A stretch of 64,000 nucleotides of DNA from Halosimplex rubrum (GTDB lineage: Archaea > Halobacteriota > Halobacteria > Halobacteriales > Haloarculaceae). The notes beneath the pieces were generated by a model that saw only the letters and a list, made by a program, of their open reading frames with translations, did not search any database and was not told the origin of the DNA. The translations under genes were made by a program, and so were the position numbers. Shown here piece by piece: positions 33,833-40,456 of the stretch. Each line of letters starts with the position of its first letter. Position 1 is the stretch's first letter. The stretch spans positions 3,906,001-3,970,000 of the forward strand of contig NZ_CP058910.1 of assembly GCF_013415885.1 (NCBI RefSeq), written 5' to 3'.

Positions 33833-35023
33833 TCAGTCCCGGTCGAGAACGGCGTTGCAGTTCGGGCAGTTCGTGCGGTCGGGCTCGGCGGCGTAGGTCT
33901 CCCCGCAGATGGGGCAGAACTCGTTTTTCACCGCCGCCTCGCCGCTCCCGGCGTCGGCGCCGGGGACCTCGGCGTCCTCGGGCGGGGAGAACACGCGCGT
34001 CTGCCCGGCGGGCTCCACCGAGTCCTCGCCCGAGTCGGTCGCCCCGGTCGTGTCGCTGGTCGCGTCGTCGTTCGAGCCGGCTCCGGCGGTCGAGCCGCCG
34101 GACGCGTCGCCGGAGTCGGGCGCCTGGGTCCCGCTACCGGCGGACTCGCTCTCGGACTCGGCTTCGGACGCCGTGCCCATCGCGAGGCGGTCCGTCGTGC
34201 CGGGCTGGACGACCTGCGGGTAGCGCTGGCCGGCGCGGATCGCCGTGCGGGGCACGTCCGGGCGCCGGATCCGGACGACCAGGCTCGCGAACAGCTGGAT
34301 CCAGACGTACGCGAGCGCGAGCGCGGCCGGCGTCGCGACCGCGGCGAGCGGGAGCAGCGGCGCCGTGAGCCCGGCGAGCGTCACCTCGCCGAAGACCGCC
34401 TCGCCGACGCCGTAGCGCGCGGCGGCCGCCTCGACCAGCGCGGTCTGCCCGCCCAGCGACGCGGCCCGCGAGACGGTCGCCGTCGTCGCGACGACGGCCG
34501 AGACGAACACGAGCGCCTGGAGCAGGCGCGGGGCCGAGAACGAGTAGACGCGGTAGCCGTACGCGACGGTCCGGACCAGCAACAGCGTGTTCGCGACCGC
34601 CAGCAGCGCGAGCACGTACCAGGTGACGGCGCCGCGGGCCGCACCGACCGCGACGGCTGCGGCCAGCAGGACCAGCGGCGGGACGAGCGCGACCAGCGGA
34701 TGGTCGAAGCGGTAACACTGCTCGACGTTGCCCCGCAGGTTCGTGAGGTTGCCGACGACGTAGCGGACGGCGACGGCCGACGGGACGAGCACCCAGAGGA
34801 CGGCGAAGGTCGCGGCGAGCCCGACCGCCTCGGTCGACCAGGGGTCGACGGTGTAGGCGCCGACGACCAGGTCGGCGACCTGCGAGACGGCGACGCCGGT
34901 GCCGGCCAGCCAGATGAGGTAGCCGGCGGCGCCGGCGACCAGCCCGAGGAAGAACCACCGCTCCTCGTCTGCGAGGAGGCGGACGGACCTGCCGAGTTCA
35001 CGGCGCGTGTCTCTGGTATCCAT
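33833..35023 (-). CDS. Membrane protein with C-terminal zinc ribbon
   Basis: The 396-residue protein has about six to seven membrane segments in its first 265 residues (for example FFLGLVAGAAGYLIWLAG and LVALVPPLVLLAAAVAVGAA). An acidic, Ser/Gly-rich linker of about 90 residues follows. The end is a zinc ribbon with paired cysteines in FCPICGETYAAE and NCPNCNAVLDRD. It is the last gene of the vWA-kinase-phosphatase-FHA operon, 27 bases after the FHA gene. The zinc ribbon parallels those in that neighbour. It may anchor the signalling complex at the membrane; this is inference. Confidence 0.82.
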   Translation of the reverse strand: MDTRDTRRELGRSVRLLADEERWFFLGLVAGAAGYLIWLAGTGVAVSQVADLVVGAYTVDPWSTEAVGLAATFAVLWVLVPSAVAVRYVVGNLTNLRGNVEQCYRFDHPLVALVPPLVLLAAAVAVGAARGAVTWYVLALLAVANTLLLVRTVAYGYRVYSFSAPRLLQALVFVSAVVATTATVSRAASLGGQTALVEAAAARYGVGEAVFGEVTLAGLTAPLLPLAAVATPAALALAYVWIQLFASLVVRIRRPDVPRTAIRAGQRYPQVVQPGTTDRLAMGTASEAESESESAGSGTQAPDSGDASGGSTAGAGSNDDATSDTTGATDSGEDSVEPAGQTRVFSPPEDAEVPGADAGSGEAAVKNEFCPICGETYAAEPDRTNCPNCNAVLDRD

Positions 35024-35050
35024 GCTCGCTCGTCGGACCGAGCCGCGGGG

Positions 35051-36391
35051 TCAGGGGGCCTGGACGCGCAGCGTCGCGACGCCGGAGAGTTCGATCCGGT
35101 CGCCCGGCGAGACGGGGACGCGCTCGCCCTCGTCGAGCGACTCGCCGTCGACGACCGTCGGGTTCTGCCCGAGCGCGACGAGGTGGAACTGCCCGTCCTC
35201 GCGGACGAACTGCACGTGTTCGCGGTGGATGCGCACCGCGTCGTCCTCGTCGCCGCCGGTGTTCATCACGATACTCCGGACGGTTCGACCGACCGTATCC
35301 CCGTCCCACACTTGAACCTCGCGGTTGCGCACGACCAGCACCAGCGATTCCGGCGCCTCGACCGCCGCTCCCTCGGCTCCGGCCGACGCCGGCTCGCCGT
35401 CGGCGTCTCCCGGTCGCTCGACCGTCCGGTCGTCGCCGTCGGCGCTCCCGGCGTTGCCGGCCCCCGCGTCACCGGTCGCTGTGCCGTCGTCGGTCGCCGT
35501 GCCGTCACCGGTCGCCGTGCCGTCGTCGACCGCCGCATCGGCGGCGTCTCCGGTCTCACCGCCCGAACGGTGAGCGTCGAGGTCCTCGCCACACGAGGCA
35601 CAGAAGTTGTCGTCCGGTTCGACTTCGGTCCCGCAGTCCGGACACTCCGTCAGCGGCCCCGGCTCCAGCGCCGACACGTCCTCGCCGCAGTTGGCGCAGA
35701 AGTTGTCTTCGGCGTCGACCGACTCGCCACAGTCCGGACAGGTGAGGTCGCCCCCCTCGCCGGTCCCGGCGTCGGCATCGGCCGCTCCCTCGTCGGCGGC
35801 GGCCGCCCCCTGGTCGGGTCCCGCCCCGGACTCGTCGTCGACCGCGCCAGCGGAGGCCTCGTTAACCGCCTCGGAGTCGGTCGGTTCCGACTCGTCGCCG
35901 TCCGGCGAATCGGCGCGGTCGCCGTTCGGCGCGTCGACGCCGGCGTCGGCCTCGGCCGCCGCGACGCCGTCGGCCGTGTCGGACGGCTCCGCCGCGGCCG
36001 CCGTCGATTCCGCGTCGGTGCTGTCGGCCGAGTCGGCACCGGCGGTATCGTCGGTTGCGTCGGGCGCGCTCGTATCGGCGTCGTCGGCCGCAACGGAGAC
36101 CGCCTCGGCCGGCTCCCCGGCCGGCTCGTCGACCTCGGCACCGGGGGTCGGATCGTCCGGCGAGTCGGTCCCGTCCCCGGTCGCGTCGGGCGCGTCGTCC
36201 GTGTCCGGGGTTTCGGCCCCGGCGTCGTCCGTGTCCGGGGTTTCGGCCCCGGCGTCGTCCGTCTCGGGCGCGGTCGCTTCGTGTTGCCACTCCCCGCAGT
36301 CCGAGTTCGTACACCAGCCCCCCGCGGCGGTCGGGTCGAACTCCTCCCCGCAGAGGGGGCACTCGACCGTCCCGCTCGTGCTGTGCGACAT
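35051..36391 (-). CDS. Zinc-ribbon protein with C-terminal FHA domain
   Basis: The 446-residue protein opens with a zinc ribbon (ECPLCGEEFDP, then WCTNSDCGEW). A long acidic disordered linker contains a duplicated TDDAGAETPD unit. Two more ribbons follow (CPDCGESVDAEDNFCANCG and CPDCGTEVEPDDNFCASCG), then a C-terminal FHA-type domain (VRIHREHVQFVREDGQFHLV and LSPGDRIEL-like strands). FHA domains bind phosphothreonine, so this is a candidate reader for the kinase encoded upstream. A T-rich box about 28 bases before the ATG at 36391 suggests an own promoter. Confidence 0.85.
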   Translation of the reverse strand: MSHSTSGTVECPLCGEEFDPTAAGGWCTNSDCGEWQHEATAPETDDAGAETPDTDDAGAETPDTDDAPDATGDGTDSPDDPTPGAEVDEPAGEPAEAVSVAADDADTSAPDATDDTAGADSADSTDAESTAAAAEPSDTADGVAAAEADAGVDAPNGDRADSPDGDESEPTDSEAVNEASAGAVDDESGAGPDQGAAAADEGAADADAGTGEGGDLTCPDCGESVDAEDNFCANCGEDVSALEPGPLTECPDCGTEVEPDDNFCASCGEDLDAHRSGGETGDAADAAVDDGTATGDGTATDDGTATGDAGAGNAGSADGDDRTVERPGDADGEPASAGAEGAAVEAPESLVLVVRNREVQVWDGDTVGRTVRSIVMNTGGDEDDAVRIHREHVQFVREDGQFHLVALGQNPTVVDGESLDEGERVPVSPGDRIELSGVATLRVQAP

Positions 36392-36521
36392 AGCTGTCGG
36401 CATATGCAGGCCGGTCATCAAAACAGTTGCCCCGTCGTGTCGGCGCGGCGGAGGGTCGGGAACCGCACGACCGCGGGCGGCCGCGGACGACGGATCCGAC
36501 CCGATCGGCCGCGCGATACCC

Positions 36522-36593
36522 TCAGTCGTGCTCGGCGAGCGTCTCGCTGCTCGCGGGTCGCTCCGCTCCCCGCTCACCTCCCGAGACGCTCAT
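36522..36593 (-). CDS. 23-codon ORF overlapping the PP2C stop, carrying the 24-bp repeat
   Basis: The ATG at 36593 overlaps the phosphatase stop as ATGA and the ORF runs to 36522. It contains the 24-base repeat (36550-36573) also found in two enzyme genes. Unlike the other small ORFs, its end does not reach the next gene's start (36391), so it does not bridge the gap. It may be only the tail of coupled reading. The 198 bases between the genes hold nothing else. Confidence 0.3.
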   Translation of the reverse strand: MSVSGGERGAERPASSETLAEHD

Positions 36594-37768
36594 TGCATTC
36601 GCGTCTCGCGTTCCTCCACCGACTGCTCGGCGCCCGCCGCCCGAGCGGGCGGGTCGGTCGGCGTCGGCGGGAGCGTCCCGTCGTGGAGCAGGACCGTCGA
36701 GAGATTGTCCTTGCCGCCGCGGTCGTTGGCCAGGTCGACCAGCCGCTCGGCCGCGTCGGCCAGCGACGGCGCCGACAGCACCGCCTCGCGGATCTCCCCG
36801 TCGGTGACCGCGCGGTCGCGGACCACGGCGGCCATCTCGTCGTCGCGGCCGGCGTCGACGTACCACTCGTAGAGCTTCGCCGCCTCCGTCTGGGCGTCCA
36901 GCAGGCCGTCGCTCGTGACGAGCAACACGTCCTCGCGGTAGAGCGGGACGGTCGCCGTCTCCACGTCGACGGTCGCCGTCTGGGGGTCCCCGCGGCCGCT
37001 CCCGCCGAGGGCGCGAGTGATCTCGTTGCCCCGCGGGTGGACCAGCGCCTCCACGTCGTCGATCTCGCCGGCCTCGCGCAGTCGCTGGACGACCGCGTGG
37101 TCCGTGGTGAGCGGCAGGATCTCGTCGCGCGCGGCGTTGACGACGTAGGCGCGGCTGTCGCCGACCCACCCGTAGTGACAGCGGCCGCCGACGCAGACGC
37201 CGGCGACGACGGTCGCGTGGGCCTGCTCGCCCGCGTCGGCGGCGTACGCCAGCACCTCGCGGTGAGCGGCGACGACCGCCTCGGCGACCGCCGATTCCAT
37301 CTCTCCGTCCCGCGGCGGGGCCGCCAGCGGGTCGTCGACGGCCACGTCGAACCCCTCCGGGTCGCTGCGCGCGGCGGCGACGGCCGTGCCCGCGAGGTGC
37401 TCGCAGACGGCCGTCGTCGCGATGTAGGAGGCGGCGTCGCCGGCGTCGTGACCCCCGGCGCCGTCGGCGAGCGCGAACACCGCCGCGCTCCGGTTGTCGC
37501 GATCGCGGTCTGCCCCGTCGCGGTCCCGCGGTTCGTCGCGCCGGTCGTCGGGGGCCGACTCGTCGGACTCGGCGTCGGCGTCACCGGCCTCCGGTTCGCG
37601 CCCCTCCTCGTCGGAGTCGCCCGTTTCGTCACCGTCGGCGTCGTCGCGGTCGTAGCCGCGAAAGCCCGCGCGGTGGCCCTGTTCGAACACGGAGACCGCG
37701 ACGCTGTCCTCGTTGATCCCCCCGTCGCGCTTGCGGTCCCCCACGTCGTAGTGCGTTGCGTAATCCAT
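36590..37768 (-). CDS. PP2C-family protein phosphatase
   Basis: The 392-residue protein is a metal-dependent Ser/Thr phosphatase. Motifs in order are DGGINEDSVAVSVF, ALADGAGGHDAGDAAS with metal-binding aspartate, YGWVGDSRAYVV, VLLVTSDGLLDA and RGGKDNLSTVLLH. An acidic insert of about 60 residues (positions 40-95) interrupts the first strands. The gene lies two bases after the kinase gene and should oppose the kinase. The ATG at 37768 gives MDYATHYDVGDRKRDGG; the longer ORF lies inside the kinase gene. Confidence 0.92.
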   Translation of the reverse strand: MDYATHYDVGDRKRDGGINEDSVAVSVFEQGHRAGFRGYDRDDADGDETGDSDEEGREPEAGDADAESDESAPDDRRDEPRDRDGADRDRDNRSAAVFALADGAGGHDAGDAASYIATTAVCEHLAGTAVAAARSDPEGFDVAVDDPLAAPPRDGEMESAVAEAVVAAHREVLAYAADAGEQAHATVVAGVCVGGRCHYGWVGDSRAYVVNAARDEILPLTTDHAVVQRLREAGEIDDVEALVHPRGNEITRALGGSGRGDPQTATVDVETATVPLYREDVLLVTSDGLLDAQTEAAKLYEWYVDAGRDDEMAAVVRDRAVTDGEIREAVLSAPSLADAAERLVDLANDRGGKDNLSTVLLHDGTLPPTPTDPPARAAGAEQSVEERETRMQ

Positions 37769-37770
37769 GG

Positions 37771-39003
37771 TTATGCCGTACTGAACTCGAAGGTGACGCC
37801 GTAGCTCGGGTGGACGAGGGCGATCAGGTCGCCCTCGCGCAGCCCGTACAGTTCCGGCGGCACGTTCCCCTCCGCGTCGGTCGCGTCTTCGCCCGACTGC
37901 TCCAGGCGCTCGCGACCGGCCTCGCTGAGCACGCGCTGCCACCCGCCGCCCGTCTGGACGTAGGTCCCGTTGAGGCTCCGGTCGCGGATGAACCACTCGC
38001 CGTCGGCGTCCGTGTCGAACTGCACCTGCACCGTCGAGATGTACTCCTCCTCGTCCTCGATCACGACCGACGACCGCGGGCCGTCGGCGTAGCGCCGGCC
38101 GATGGTGTCGCCCGGGTAGACCGTGTATCGTTCGCCCGCCTGCGTGTAGCGGACCGTCGCCGACGGCGGCGGGCTCGGGTCCCGCGCCTCGAGGACGCGC
38201 TTCATCGCCGTCGCGTTGCGGTAGCGCTCCTCGTAGTCGCTCGCGGTCGCCTTCTCGACGATGGCCGCGAGATACGGCTCGCACTCGGCGCCGAAGTCGC
38301 GCGGGTCGACCCCGTCCTTGCGCGGGACCGTCCCCTTCAGCAGGTAGAGGAGGATCTTCCCGACGGAGTAGACGTCCGACCACGGGCCCTGGCGGGCCTC
38401 CGTCGCGTCGGCCTCGGCGACCTCCCGCGGTTTGTACGGGCCGACGATGGTCGTCTGGTCGGCCGCCTCCGCTCCCGTATCGAACCCCGTCGCCGTGTTG
38501 AAGTCGATGAGCACCGGCGTCACCGTCCCCCCGCGGTGGGTGATCATCACGTTGTCGGGCTTCAGATCGCGGTAGACGATCTCGTTCTCGTGGAGGAAAC
38601 TCATCGCGTCACAGAGGTCGATCCCGATCTGTCGCACCTGGTCGATGTCGTCGAGCGGGCCGGTCCGCCGGATGGCGTCGTCGAGCTCGTAGCCGTCGAC
38701 GAGTTCCACGACGAGGACCGAGGTACCGTCCCCGTCCTCGGCGACCTCGCGCAGCGACATGATGTTGGGGTGGCCGCCCGCATCGCGGATGGCCGCCAGC
38801 GTCTCGGCCTCCTTCTGGAAGTAGGTCCGGACGATGTCGCGGTCGTTCTGGCTGCCCGCGTAGTTGGGGTACTTGAGCGCGACGGCCTCGCCGGTCTCGG
38901 TGTCGACGGCGTCGAACACCTTCGCGAACCCGCCCTCGCCGACCACCTCGCCGACCTCGTAGCGGCCGACGACCAGGTCGCCCCCCGTCGGCGCGGCCGT
39001 CAT
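37771..39003 (-). CDS. Ser/Thr protein kinase with C-terminal FHA domain
   Basis: The 410-residue soluble kinase has the eukaryotic-like kinase domain at about residues 10-265. The glycine loop is VVGEGGFAKVF, the lysine is in AVALKYPN, the catalytic loop is VYRDLKPDNVMI and the metal motif is LIDFNTATG (DFN in place of DFG). WSDVYSVGKILLYLLKG follows. An FHA domain with IRDRSLNGTYVQ fills the C-terminus. The start overlaps the vWA gene's stop (ATGA) and the phosphatase gene follows after two bases. There is no membrane segment. Confidence 0.94.
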   Translation of the reverse strand: MTAAPTGGDLVVGRYEVGEVVGEGGFAKVFDAVDTETGEAVALKYPNYAGSQNDRDIVRTYFQKEAETLAAIRDAGGHPNIMSLREVAEDGDGTSVLVVELVDGYELDDAIRRTGPLDDIDQVRQIGIDLCDAMSFLHENEIVYRDLKPDNVMITHRGGTVTPVLIDFNTATGFDTGAEAADQTTIVGPYKPREVAEADATEARQGPWSDVYSVGKILLYLLKGTVPRKDGVDPRDFGAECEPYLAAIVEKATASDYEERYRNATAMKRVLEARDPSPPPSATVRYTQAGERYTVYPGDTIGRRYADGPRSSVVIEDEEEYISTVQVQFDTDADGEWFIRDRSLNGTYVQTGGGWQRVLSEAGRERLEQSGEDATDAEGNVPPELYGLREGDLIALVHPSYGVTFEFSTA

Positions 39004-40187
39004 TCTATCCGGGAGTCGTCGACGATCCTGGTGGCGCTCTCGCGTTCGTTGCGACCGCCCTCGTCGACGAGCCGGGTCTGTCGCTGGGCCTCCTCGACGA
39101 CGGCCGTGTCCTCGCCGTGGATCCGGGTCATCTTCTCGACTTCGGTCTCGGCGGCCGCGACGTTGCCCTTCCCGAGCTCCGTGCGGACGACCGTCTGGCG
39201 GTGGTCGAGCGACACCGACTCGTTGTGCTCGGCGAGGGCGGCGTTGTCGTCGGTGTACTCGGCGGCGATCCGGTCGCTCGCCCGCTCGCCCGACGCCGTG
39301 AGCGTCACGTCGACCAGCGAGCGCGCGCCGAGTTCCTCGCGTGTGGGCGCGTGGACTTTCAGGACGACGCGCTGGCTCTCGCGCTCGGCCAGGTCCGGGA
39401 GCGGAACCGTCGCGGCGTTGCCCGACCAGTTCACGTCGACCTCCTGGGCCTGCGGGAGCGCGCGGTACACCTCGCTCACCTCGACGCCGGCGGCGGCGTC
39501 GAGTTCGAGGCTGGCCTCCGTCGCGACGACGGACTGGGCCTGCTCGACGGCGTCGCCGAAGAACGATTCGATGTCGCCGGGCGATTCGAGGTGGGTCCAC
39601 TCGCCGCGGGCGGTCGTCCCGAGCGTGCGGATGGTCTCCTCGTCGTAGTCGGTGCCGATACCCGCCGAGAGAACCCTGATGCCCGACCCGTCGATGTCGG
39701 CAGCGAGCTCGCGGAAGTCGGCGGGGTCGTGGTTGTTGTCCTTGCCGTCCGACAGCAGCAGGACCCGGCGGACGGCGTCGTCGGTCTCCGGGCGGTACCC
39801 CAGCGAGTCCAGCGCGGCCCGGGCCGAGTCGAGGCCGTCGTACATGTCGGTCCCCCCGCCGGCGCTCAGTTGCTCGACGCGATGCATGGCGTCTTCGCGG
39901 GCGGTGTCGCCCCACCGCTGGGGGCGCATGACGACCTCGGCGTCGGAGTCGAACGCCACGATGCCGACGTAGTCGTCGGGTTCGAGGAGGCCGAACACCC
40001 ACGAGGCGCCCTCCCGGGCCTGGTCGAGTTTCGCCCCGTCCATCGAGCCGCTCGTGTCCAGACAGAGGAGGATATGCCGCTCGCGGGACCCGCTCCCCGT
40101 CCCCGGTTCGACGTCGACCGTCGCCGTCAGCGTCGCCCCGTCGGCGGGCACGTACGGCCGGTTGACGTCGGTCTCGATTGCTACCAT
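39000..40187 (-). CDS. von Willebrand factor A domain protein
   Basis: The 395-residue protein carries a vWA domain with a complete MIDAS metal site: LDTSGSMDGAKL, GGGTDMYDGL and LLLSDGKDNNHD. It is preceded by a beta region and followed by a beta-sandwich-like and helical C-terminal part (EVEKMTRIHGEDTAVVEEAQ). There is no signal peptide. It heads the operon that continues with a kinase, a PP2C phosphatase and an FHA protein. An A-rich sequence (AAAAACACATACGG) lies near the promoter position before the ATG at 40187. Confidence 0.92.
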   Translation of the reverse strand: MVAIETDVNRPYVPADGATLTATVDVEPGTGSGSRERHILLCLDTSGSMDGAKLDQAREGASWVFGLLEPDDYVGIVAFDSDAEVVMRPQRWGDTAREDAMHRVEQLSAGGGTDMYDGLDSARAALDSLGYRPETDDAVRRVLLLSDGKDNNHDPADFRELAADIDGSGIRVLSAGIGTDYDEETIRTLGTTARGEWTHLESPGDIESFFGDAVEQAQSVVATEASLELDAAAGVEVSEVYRALPQAQEVDVNWSGNAATVPLPDLAERESQRVVLKVHAPTREELGARSLVDVTLTASGERASDRIAAEYTDDNAALAEHNESVSLDHRQTVVRTELGKGNVAAAETEVEKMTRIHGEDTAVVEEAQRQTRLVDEGGRNERESATRIVDDSRIE

Positions 40188-40324: not shown

Positions 40325-40456
40325 CTACGCGAACAGTCCCCGAATCACGTCGCCGAAGCGCAACAGCACGATGCCCCCGACCAGCATCGCCAGCAGCCAG
40401 AGCACGGTGATGAGCACGCTCCGGCGCATGAACGGGTCTTCGGTCCAAGTTGTCAT
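40325..40456 (-). CDS. 43-residue single-pass membrane protein
   Basis: The short protein MTTWTEDPFMRRSVLITVLW... has one hydrophobic helix (VLITVLWLLAMLVGGIVLL) and a basic turn before it. The ATG at 40456 has a T-rich TATA-like box (CTTTTTGAG) about 32 bases upstream, supporting a real leaderless gene. It lies just upstream of the vWA operon on the same strand, 137 bases away, but probably has its own promoter. The function is unknown. Confidence 0.65.
   Translation of the reverse strand: MTTWTEDPFMRRSVLITVLWLLAMLVGGIVLLRFGDVIRGLFA

Follow-up and report, generated by a model that had tools for sequence, protein, structure and literature searches.

Results

A five-gene operon encoding a kinase, a phosphatase, and their putative partners

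We analyzed a 64,000-nucleotide stretch of the Halosimplex rubrum genome (contig NZ_CP058910.1, positions 3,906,001 to 3,970,000; hereafter the window), in which five genes form a minus-strand operon at window positions 33833-40187. In order, they encode a vWA protein, a Ser/Thr kinase with an FHA domain, a PP2C phosphatase, a protein combining zinc ribbons with an FHA domain (P0004), and a membrane protein ending in a zinc ribbon (Table 1). The kinase start overlaps the vWA stop (ATGA), the PP2C gene begins 2 bases past the kinase stop, and the genes for P0004 and the membrane protein follow after gaps of about 200 and 27 bases, respectively. A preliminary description of this DNA had placed five co-oriented open reading frames (ORFs) here, the first three overlapping or almost touching, and all of them were found with that arrangement. 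A short tag, consisting of an invariant threonine followed by hydrophobic residues, is common to the vWA tail, the PP2C tail, and the linker of the membrane protein, and is a new element. Its conservation, its enrichment in other kinase islands, and the identity, folds, order, and co-occurrence of the genes were established computationally.

Table 1. Genes and sequence features of the operon, in window coordinates
Feature	Position	Strand	Evidence or remark
vWA protein, 395 residues	39000..40187	-	Pfam VWA 9.3e-17
Ser/Thr kinase, Hanks type, C-terminal FHA	37771..39003	-	Pfam Pkinase 2.5e-32, FHA 3.2e-6
PP2C phosphatase, 392 residues	36590..37768	-	Pfam PP2C_2 8.3e-10
Zinc-ribbon/FHA protein (P0004)	35051..36388	-	alternative start 36403
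Membrane protein: six transmembrane helices, disordered linker, C-terminal zinc ribbon	33833..35023	-	AlphaFold model
vWA tail tag A-T-R-I-V, residues 385-389	39021..39035	-	A-T-x-[IL]-V in 29/29
vWA Q-T-R-L-V motif, residues 370-374	39066..39080	-	motif in 29/29
PP2C C-terminal tag R-E-T-R-M	36596..36610	-	conserved in 29/29
Membrane linker tag T-R-V-F-S-P, residues 342-347	33983..34000	-	lowest-entropy linker window
Kinase activation loop T-T-I-V-G-P, itself of T-x-I-V form	38437..38454	-	alignment
Kinase FHA core (G-R, S-T-V-Q, S-L-N-G-T)	37951..38106	-	Pfam and alignment
Two central zinc ribbons of P0004	35579..35746	-	Pfam Zn_ribbon_3 2e-16, two stretches
C-terminal zinc ribbon of the membrane protein	33857..33916	-	four invariant Cys

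The kinase, whose nearest named relative is that of Halosimplex pelagicum (99%), carries both of its Pfam domains in one protein, the FHA domain spanning residues 301-352. Its catalytic motifs (YRD and DFN) are kept in 31/31 orthologues. Residues R, S, and N of FHA domains have a role in reading phospho-peptides, and an alignment of FHA sequences showed that all three are retained in the kinase. The phosphatase also gave an NCBIfam Stp1 match (2.7e-38) that lies under the cut-off, and its metal-site motifs are kept in all 29 orthologues aligned.

P0004 consists of three zinc sites, long acidic linkers, and a divergent C-terminal FHA domain. In addition to the two central ribbons, a third, N-terminal zinc site is formed by C10, C13, C26, and C31, which are conserved in the orthologue alignment. 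No Pfam FHA match was obtained for P0004 itself at E values up to 1. With a profile of the P0004 family, the nearest solved FHA relatives are those of the GarA family (4.6e-4; 2kkl), and a distant-clade orthologue (locus L142) matches Pfam FHA at 1.5e-8. Of the FHA protein with three zinc ribbons in the preliminary description, the zinc sites are thus borne out, while the FHA domain is visible solely through the family profile and the distant orthologue.

The AlphaFold model of the membrane protein (predicted local distance difference test, pLDDT, 69) consists of six long helices and a small C-terminal ribbon, separated by a linker of about 100 residues (266-364) that has a pLDDT below 50 and is disordered in the model. 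No PDB fold matched this model with an E value under 0.001. The zinc ribbon falls below Pfam cut-offs, yet its four cysteines are invariant in 25/25 aligned proteins.

In the AlphaFold model of the vWA protein (pLDDT 82), beta strands precede the vWA domain, the remainder of the sandwich comes after it, and C-terminal helices follow; the protein ends in a short disordered tail (pLDDT below 50 from residue 387 onward). Its metal-ion-dependent adhesion site (MIDAS) motifs are intact and are kept in 28 or 29 of 29 orthologues. A Foldseek search with the model ranked 4fx5 first, followed by the ArnAB complex (8s05) and an ArnB paralogue (5a8j). VIA-align gave a Z score of 29.4 over 359 residues at 4.1 A for 4fx5, and a Z score of 27.4 with a root-mean-square deviation of 4.2 over 339 residues for ArnB (8s05_A). 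The sequence profile matched ArnB at 2.5e-12, and no Pfam match to the ArnB_C domain was found in the protein at E values up to 1. With the two qualifications given above, for the FHA domain of P0004 and the zinc ribbon of the membrane protein, the domain composition that had been read from the DNA alone (a vWA protein with intact MIDAS, an FHA kinase, a PP2C phosphatase, and a membrane protein ending in a zinc ribbon) was confirmed.

The operon is conserved as a unit

A kinase-anchored scan of 84,980 species genomes yielded 58 loci, comprising 30 close haloarchaeal loci (L039-L068, 59 to 99%), two loci from distant haloarchaea (L069 and L070, 41 and 38%), and 26 loci with kinases from other organisms (24 to 37% identity). 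All five genes occur in order at 22 of the 30 close loci. As for the others, L044 has the triad of vWA, kinase, and PP2C genes with the FHA-membrane gene pair inverted and about 4 kb off; L045 and L068 have the kinase, FHA, and membrane genes without those for vWA and PP2C; L046, L047, L048, and L061 have the triad alone; and L065 has no membrane gene nearby.

Of 146 genomes of the family, 54 have the kinase, 52 the vWA protein, 53 the zinc-ribbon/FHA protein, and 55 the membrane protein. Presence was called with cut-offs placed where the score lists show gaps (the lowest accepted scores being 486 bits for the kinase, 639 for vWA, 162 for FHA, and 204 for the membrane protein), the two halves of a membrane gene split into two ORFs in genome G023 being counted once. 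The membrane protein was found in 54/54 kinase genomes and was absent from 91 of the 92 genomes without the kinase; the one exception, G021, has no other protein of the module. Eight genomes have a membrane gene that is unlinked from the kinase gene, lying either on one contig with it at a distance of about 70 to 200 kb (G142, G144, G059, G060, and G062) or on separate contigs of draft genomes (G145, G102, and G109), so that linkage alone does not explain the co-occurrence. Scattering of the genes among relatives was not seen, and even the eight unlinked membrane genes still accompany a kinase. The gene order and the co-occurrence support the complete phospho-signaling module proposed in the preliminary description, with its five parts conserved as a unit. 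In a sample of 391 genomes of the class, 52 have a kinase relative at 1e-25; among them is a second clade, which belongs to two other families and frequently has two kinases per genome.

A threonine tag recurs in three proteins of the operon

The tag threonine is invariant in each of the vWA, PP2C, and membrane protein alignments and is never replaced by serine. On the vWA protein, the tail tag is preceded in 29/29 orthologues by [QE]-T-x-[ILV]-V-x-E-G-G. On PP2C, the tag has the form [RQK]-[EDQA]-T-x-[VILM] and lies within the last 25 residues of all 29 orthologues. The linker of the membrane protein contains T-[RQK]-V-[FY] in 25 of 26 proteins at the named loci; the one miss, L062, is a membrane gene split in two ORFs; in G023, where this gene is split in the same way, the second ORF carries the tag. 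Among the family genomes, T-x-[VI]-[FY] is found in 55/55 membrane proteins and T[RKQ][VI][FY] in 53/55, the two departures, read by eye, being T-G-V-F in G021 and T-E-V-F in G017. By column entropy, the tag is the best conserved of 45 four-column windows in the linker (0.29 bits, against a median of 2.40), and both the membrane linker and the PP2C tail conserve the tag and little else. The activation loop of the kinase reads T-T-I-[VL]-G-P in 31/31 orthologues.

Related tags are found in distant modules and in other kinase islands

Distant-clade kinases are accompanied by a membrane protein with 6 or 7 transmembrane-like segments, a linker, and a C-terminal zinc ribbon, which is homologous to that of the operon (hhalign, 98.8%). 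T-[RQ]-I-[FY] occurs in 10/10 of these membrane proteins inspected, and the vWA tail ends in T-x-V-[FY] in 12/12 inspected, these orthologues not being independent of one another.

Further tags were found in islands around other FHA kinases. An island of about 43 kb in genome G083 (L106-L108; G083:C1:2386001-2429400) holds a second-type module and about 42 ORFs, many of them tagged, whose products contain cold-shock, HEAT, PQQ propeller, pentapeptide, FHA, and DUF7343 domains. There the tag often stands directly before a zinc ribbon, and some proteins have several tags; one repeats D-E-T-V-I-Q several times. In tails and pre-ribbon linkers, we counted 21 tags for the 42 ORFs of this island (shuffle mean 0.9), 18 for three other islands with 46 ORFs (shuffle mean 1.1), and 19 for a set of 124 ORFs from the distant clade and others like it (shuffle mean 1.0), with 0 for the reversed motif in each set; because the tail and linker rule was chosen after the motif had been seen, these counts are descriptive. 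The island ORFs were chosen mechanically by length, acidity, and overlap, and may include false ones. As controls, no tag was found in 46 window ORFs outside the operon, in 88 flank ORFs, or in 20 acidic zinc-ribbon proteins of kinase-less genomes, 18 of these proteins being one family. Across tags of the form T-x-[VI]-[FY], D, S, or T and also P often follow, with a zinc ribbon often just behind.

The family that dominates the kinase-less set (L122-L128 and L131-L141) is widespread in such genomes and combines a D-A-S-K-S-E-V-M-R-E-A-L-R segment with an acidic linker and a C-terminal zinc ribbon. In related islands, there are genes for beta-propeller, HEAT, and tubulin-like proteins. The tubulin-like proteins adjoin haloarchaeal kinase-FHA-PP2C-vWA clusters at L069:14580-17216 (PF13809 2.4e-21) and L151:13843-16308 (1.2e-19). 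In the kinase island of G120, an AAA+ ATPase gene (L120:9249-11087; PF00004 1.9e-36) directly follows the gene for a charged protein of 227 residues ending in N-E-T-D-V-F, and the pair is possibly ESCRT-III/Vps4-like. A protein with an LSM domain and D-T-T-I-I near its C terminus adjoins the tagged second-clade membrane gene at L142:15917-16231 and also at L143 and L145, and a zinc-ribbon protein that has a TBP domain and ends in N-T-Q-V-Y-N-P-S-E adjoins a kinase module at L153:13366-14142. Contig G062:C2 (223917 bases) gave eight weak kinase matches and appears to be a kinase-rich replicon; no tags were flagged in the 20 kb of it that were read (L114).

Discussion

To our knowledge, Sulfolobus is the main source of what has been resolved about archaeal Ser/Thr kinase circuits, for which the known substrates are few. 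We consider it probable that the operon encodes a haloarchaeal phosphothreonine module, in which the tags are phosphorylated, read by FHA domains, and erased by PP2C at a membrane-anchored hub. We infer that the FHA-bearing kinase would phosphorylate the T-x-V/I-hydrophobic tags on the vWA tail, the PP2C tail, and the membrane linker, and that two FHA domains, one in the kinase and one in P0004, would bind the phosphorylated tags in trans. The parts of the module would gather at the membrane through this binding, and PP2C, itself tagged, would strip the phosphate and dissolve the assembly. It had been supposed earlier that the kinase modifies the vWA or the membrane protein and that the FHA proteins read the mark; the shared threonine tags give this supposition a concrete basis and add PP2C as a third likely substrate. 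By analogy with ArnA-ArnB, the output could be the control of surface structures or stress genes.

Several observations weigh against this interpretation. The kinase has the unusual DFN instead of DFG, and its activity is therefore not certain. The FHA domain of P0004 has His in place of Ser and N-P-T in place of N-G-T, and reading by it is not certain either. Residue T371 of the vWA Q-T-R-L-V motif lies inside a predicted helix (362-386 in the AlphaFold model), so this motif may be structural. None of the seven distant-clade PP2C proteins inspected is tagged, which counts against a uniform rule; a C-terminal Pfam FHA domain is present in two of the four scanned, as though the tag had given way to a reader. 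The vWA gene is missing from G136 and G138, both incomplete genomes, and P values for the co-occurrence overstate the evidence because many genomes share genera. Finally, sequence coding for the hexapeptide pattern T-[RS]-V-[FY]-[ST]-P occurs once in the Halosimplex genome (one contig of 4.48 Mb), in the membrane gene alone; as it holds no second hexapeptide tag, this genome offers no support for further clients beyond the operon.

The closest relative among known systems is the ArnA-ArnB-ArnC network, which regulates the archaellum of Sulfolobus. There, ArnC phosphorylates the C-terminal domain of ArnB, to which the FHA domain of ArnA then binds, the ArnA zinc finger giving a weak first contact with ArnB (PMC6509490, PMC12852372). 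Both systems have a vWA protein with a split beta-sandwich and C-terminal helices, a partner with an N-terminal zinc finger and an FHA domain, and a Hanks-type kinase, and in both phosphorylation is expected in the vWA C terminus. The operon could be a transcriptional switch of the ArnA-ArnB type, in which complex formation depends on the zinc ribbons and the vWA/beta-sandwich, the tag is minor, and the zinc-ribbon protein would repress archaellum, pilus, or stress genes. The match of the vWA fold to ArnB and the ArnA-like architecture of P0004 speak for such a switch, as does the finding that the zinc finger alone makes contact in unphosphorylated ArnAB (PMC12852372). We nevertheless regard it as unlikely, since the vWA protein lacks a Pfam ArnB_C match, the linker and the PP2C tail preserve the tag and little besides, and the co-conserved membrane protein and tagged PP2C do not figure in the Arn descriptions consulted. 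The haloarchaeal module further differs in that its kinase and PP2C genes share one operon, its kinase bears its own FHA domain, a membrane zinc-ribbon protein is added, the zinc sites of P0004 number three rather than one, and short tags are common to several proteins; no link to the archaellum is known.

The actinobacterial GarA/OdhI proteins, to which the divergent FHA domain of P0004 is nearest among solved structures, are governed by a short N-terminal phosphothreonine motif, ETTS. In GarA, V-F follows this motif. Phosphorylation in the motif, which lies before the FHA domain, regulates GarA (PMC12321487). The GarA motif acts in cis, whereas the haloarchaeal tags would act in trans on partner proteins. 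The proposed phosphothreonine module looks like a combination of the ArnA-ArnB and GarA logics, with trans tags on the vWA protein, PP2C, and a membrane anchor, two FHA readers of which the kinase carries one, and an eraser close at hand.

An alternative in which the tags are docking peptides for a partner other than an FHA domain (for example the MIDAS pocket of the vWA protein, a protease, or a zinc ribbon), with phosphorylation incidental, seems to us quite improbable. In its favor, MIDAS pockets of vWA domains can bind peptides, and the tag directly precedes the zinc ribbon not only in the membrane protein but also in many proteins of the islands. However, an indifferent docking site fits poorly with a threonine that is never serine in the three alignments, with an activation loop that has the tag form in all kinase orthologues, with the clustering of tags in FHA-kinase islands, and with the lack of tags in all 20 kinase-less acidic zinc-ribbon proteins, 18 of which are one family.

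The preliminary description had linked the operon to TerY-P triads and tellurite-type systems. Adjacent vWA, PP2C, and Ser/Thr kinase genes in one operon are indeed shared with TerY-P, and the beta-propeller, HEAT, and tubulin-like proteins of related islands, one of the HEAT proteins weakly matching PADLOC models, also recall such systems. A TerY-P triad for stress or anti-phage defense with extra genes is nonetheless most improbable and the TerY-P or tellurite identity was rejected: the kinase ends in an FHA domain rather than in the zinc ribbon or OB fold described for TerY-P kinases (PMC11090510), the vWA architecture and genome context differ, no Ter gene of the TerD family (PF02342, 0 matches) was found in the Halosimplex genome, a PADLOC scan, whose library was not checked for TerY-P models, gave no match for the vWA protein or PP2C, and the set is present across whole genera rather than sporadically. 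Assignment to a known anti-phage system was likewise not adopted, PADLOC having returned generic kinase matches and weak HEAT matches alone.

More tentatively, and falling somewhat short of what we would call probable, T-x-[VI]-[FY] in haloarchaea may be a transferable phosphothreonine address tag that enrolls dozens of unrelated proteins into FHA-kinase hubs, of which the operon would be the compact, membrane-anchored form. Candidates for enrollment under this proposal include membrane, HEAT, PQQ propeller, cold-shock, pentapeptide, TBP-like, phosphatase, and vWA proteins. A related arrangement is offered by the ESCRT (endosomal sorting complexes required for transport) loci of the Halo_FHA clade, in which FHA proteins accompany Ser/Thr kinases and phosphatases and from which the authors infer sorting of phosphorylated proteins (PMC10936438). 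These loci show that phospho-reading modules recur in haloarchaea; they differ from the operon in the window, in which we noticed no gene resembling those of ESCRT.

With a tag that can be read off the sequence, the substrates of haloarchaeal kinases would be predicted together with their partners and readers, and exact threonine residues are given for mutation in the genetically tractable Haloarcula and Haloferax. The operon also brings together, in one conserved module, the Sec23/24-like fold of ArnB, FHA reading, and a membrane anchor. We found no description of the operon or the tag among the literature entries listed (including PMC7159879), a search that covers few subscription papers and does not prove that none exists.

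Genes adjoining the operon

Beyond the operon, the flanks contain, among the matches listed, gene sets common to close genera alone, which gave no functional clue. Upstream of the vWA gene, a possible protein of 43 residues with a single transmembrane segment is encoded on the minus strand at window positions 40325-40456.

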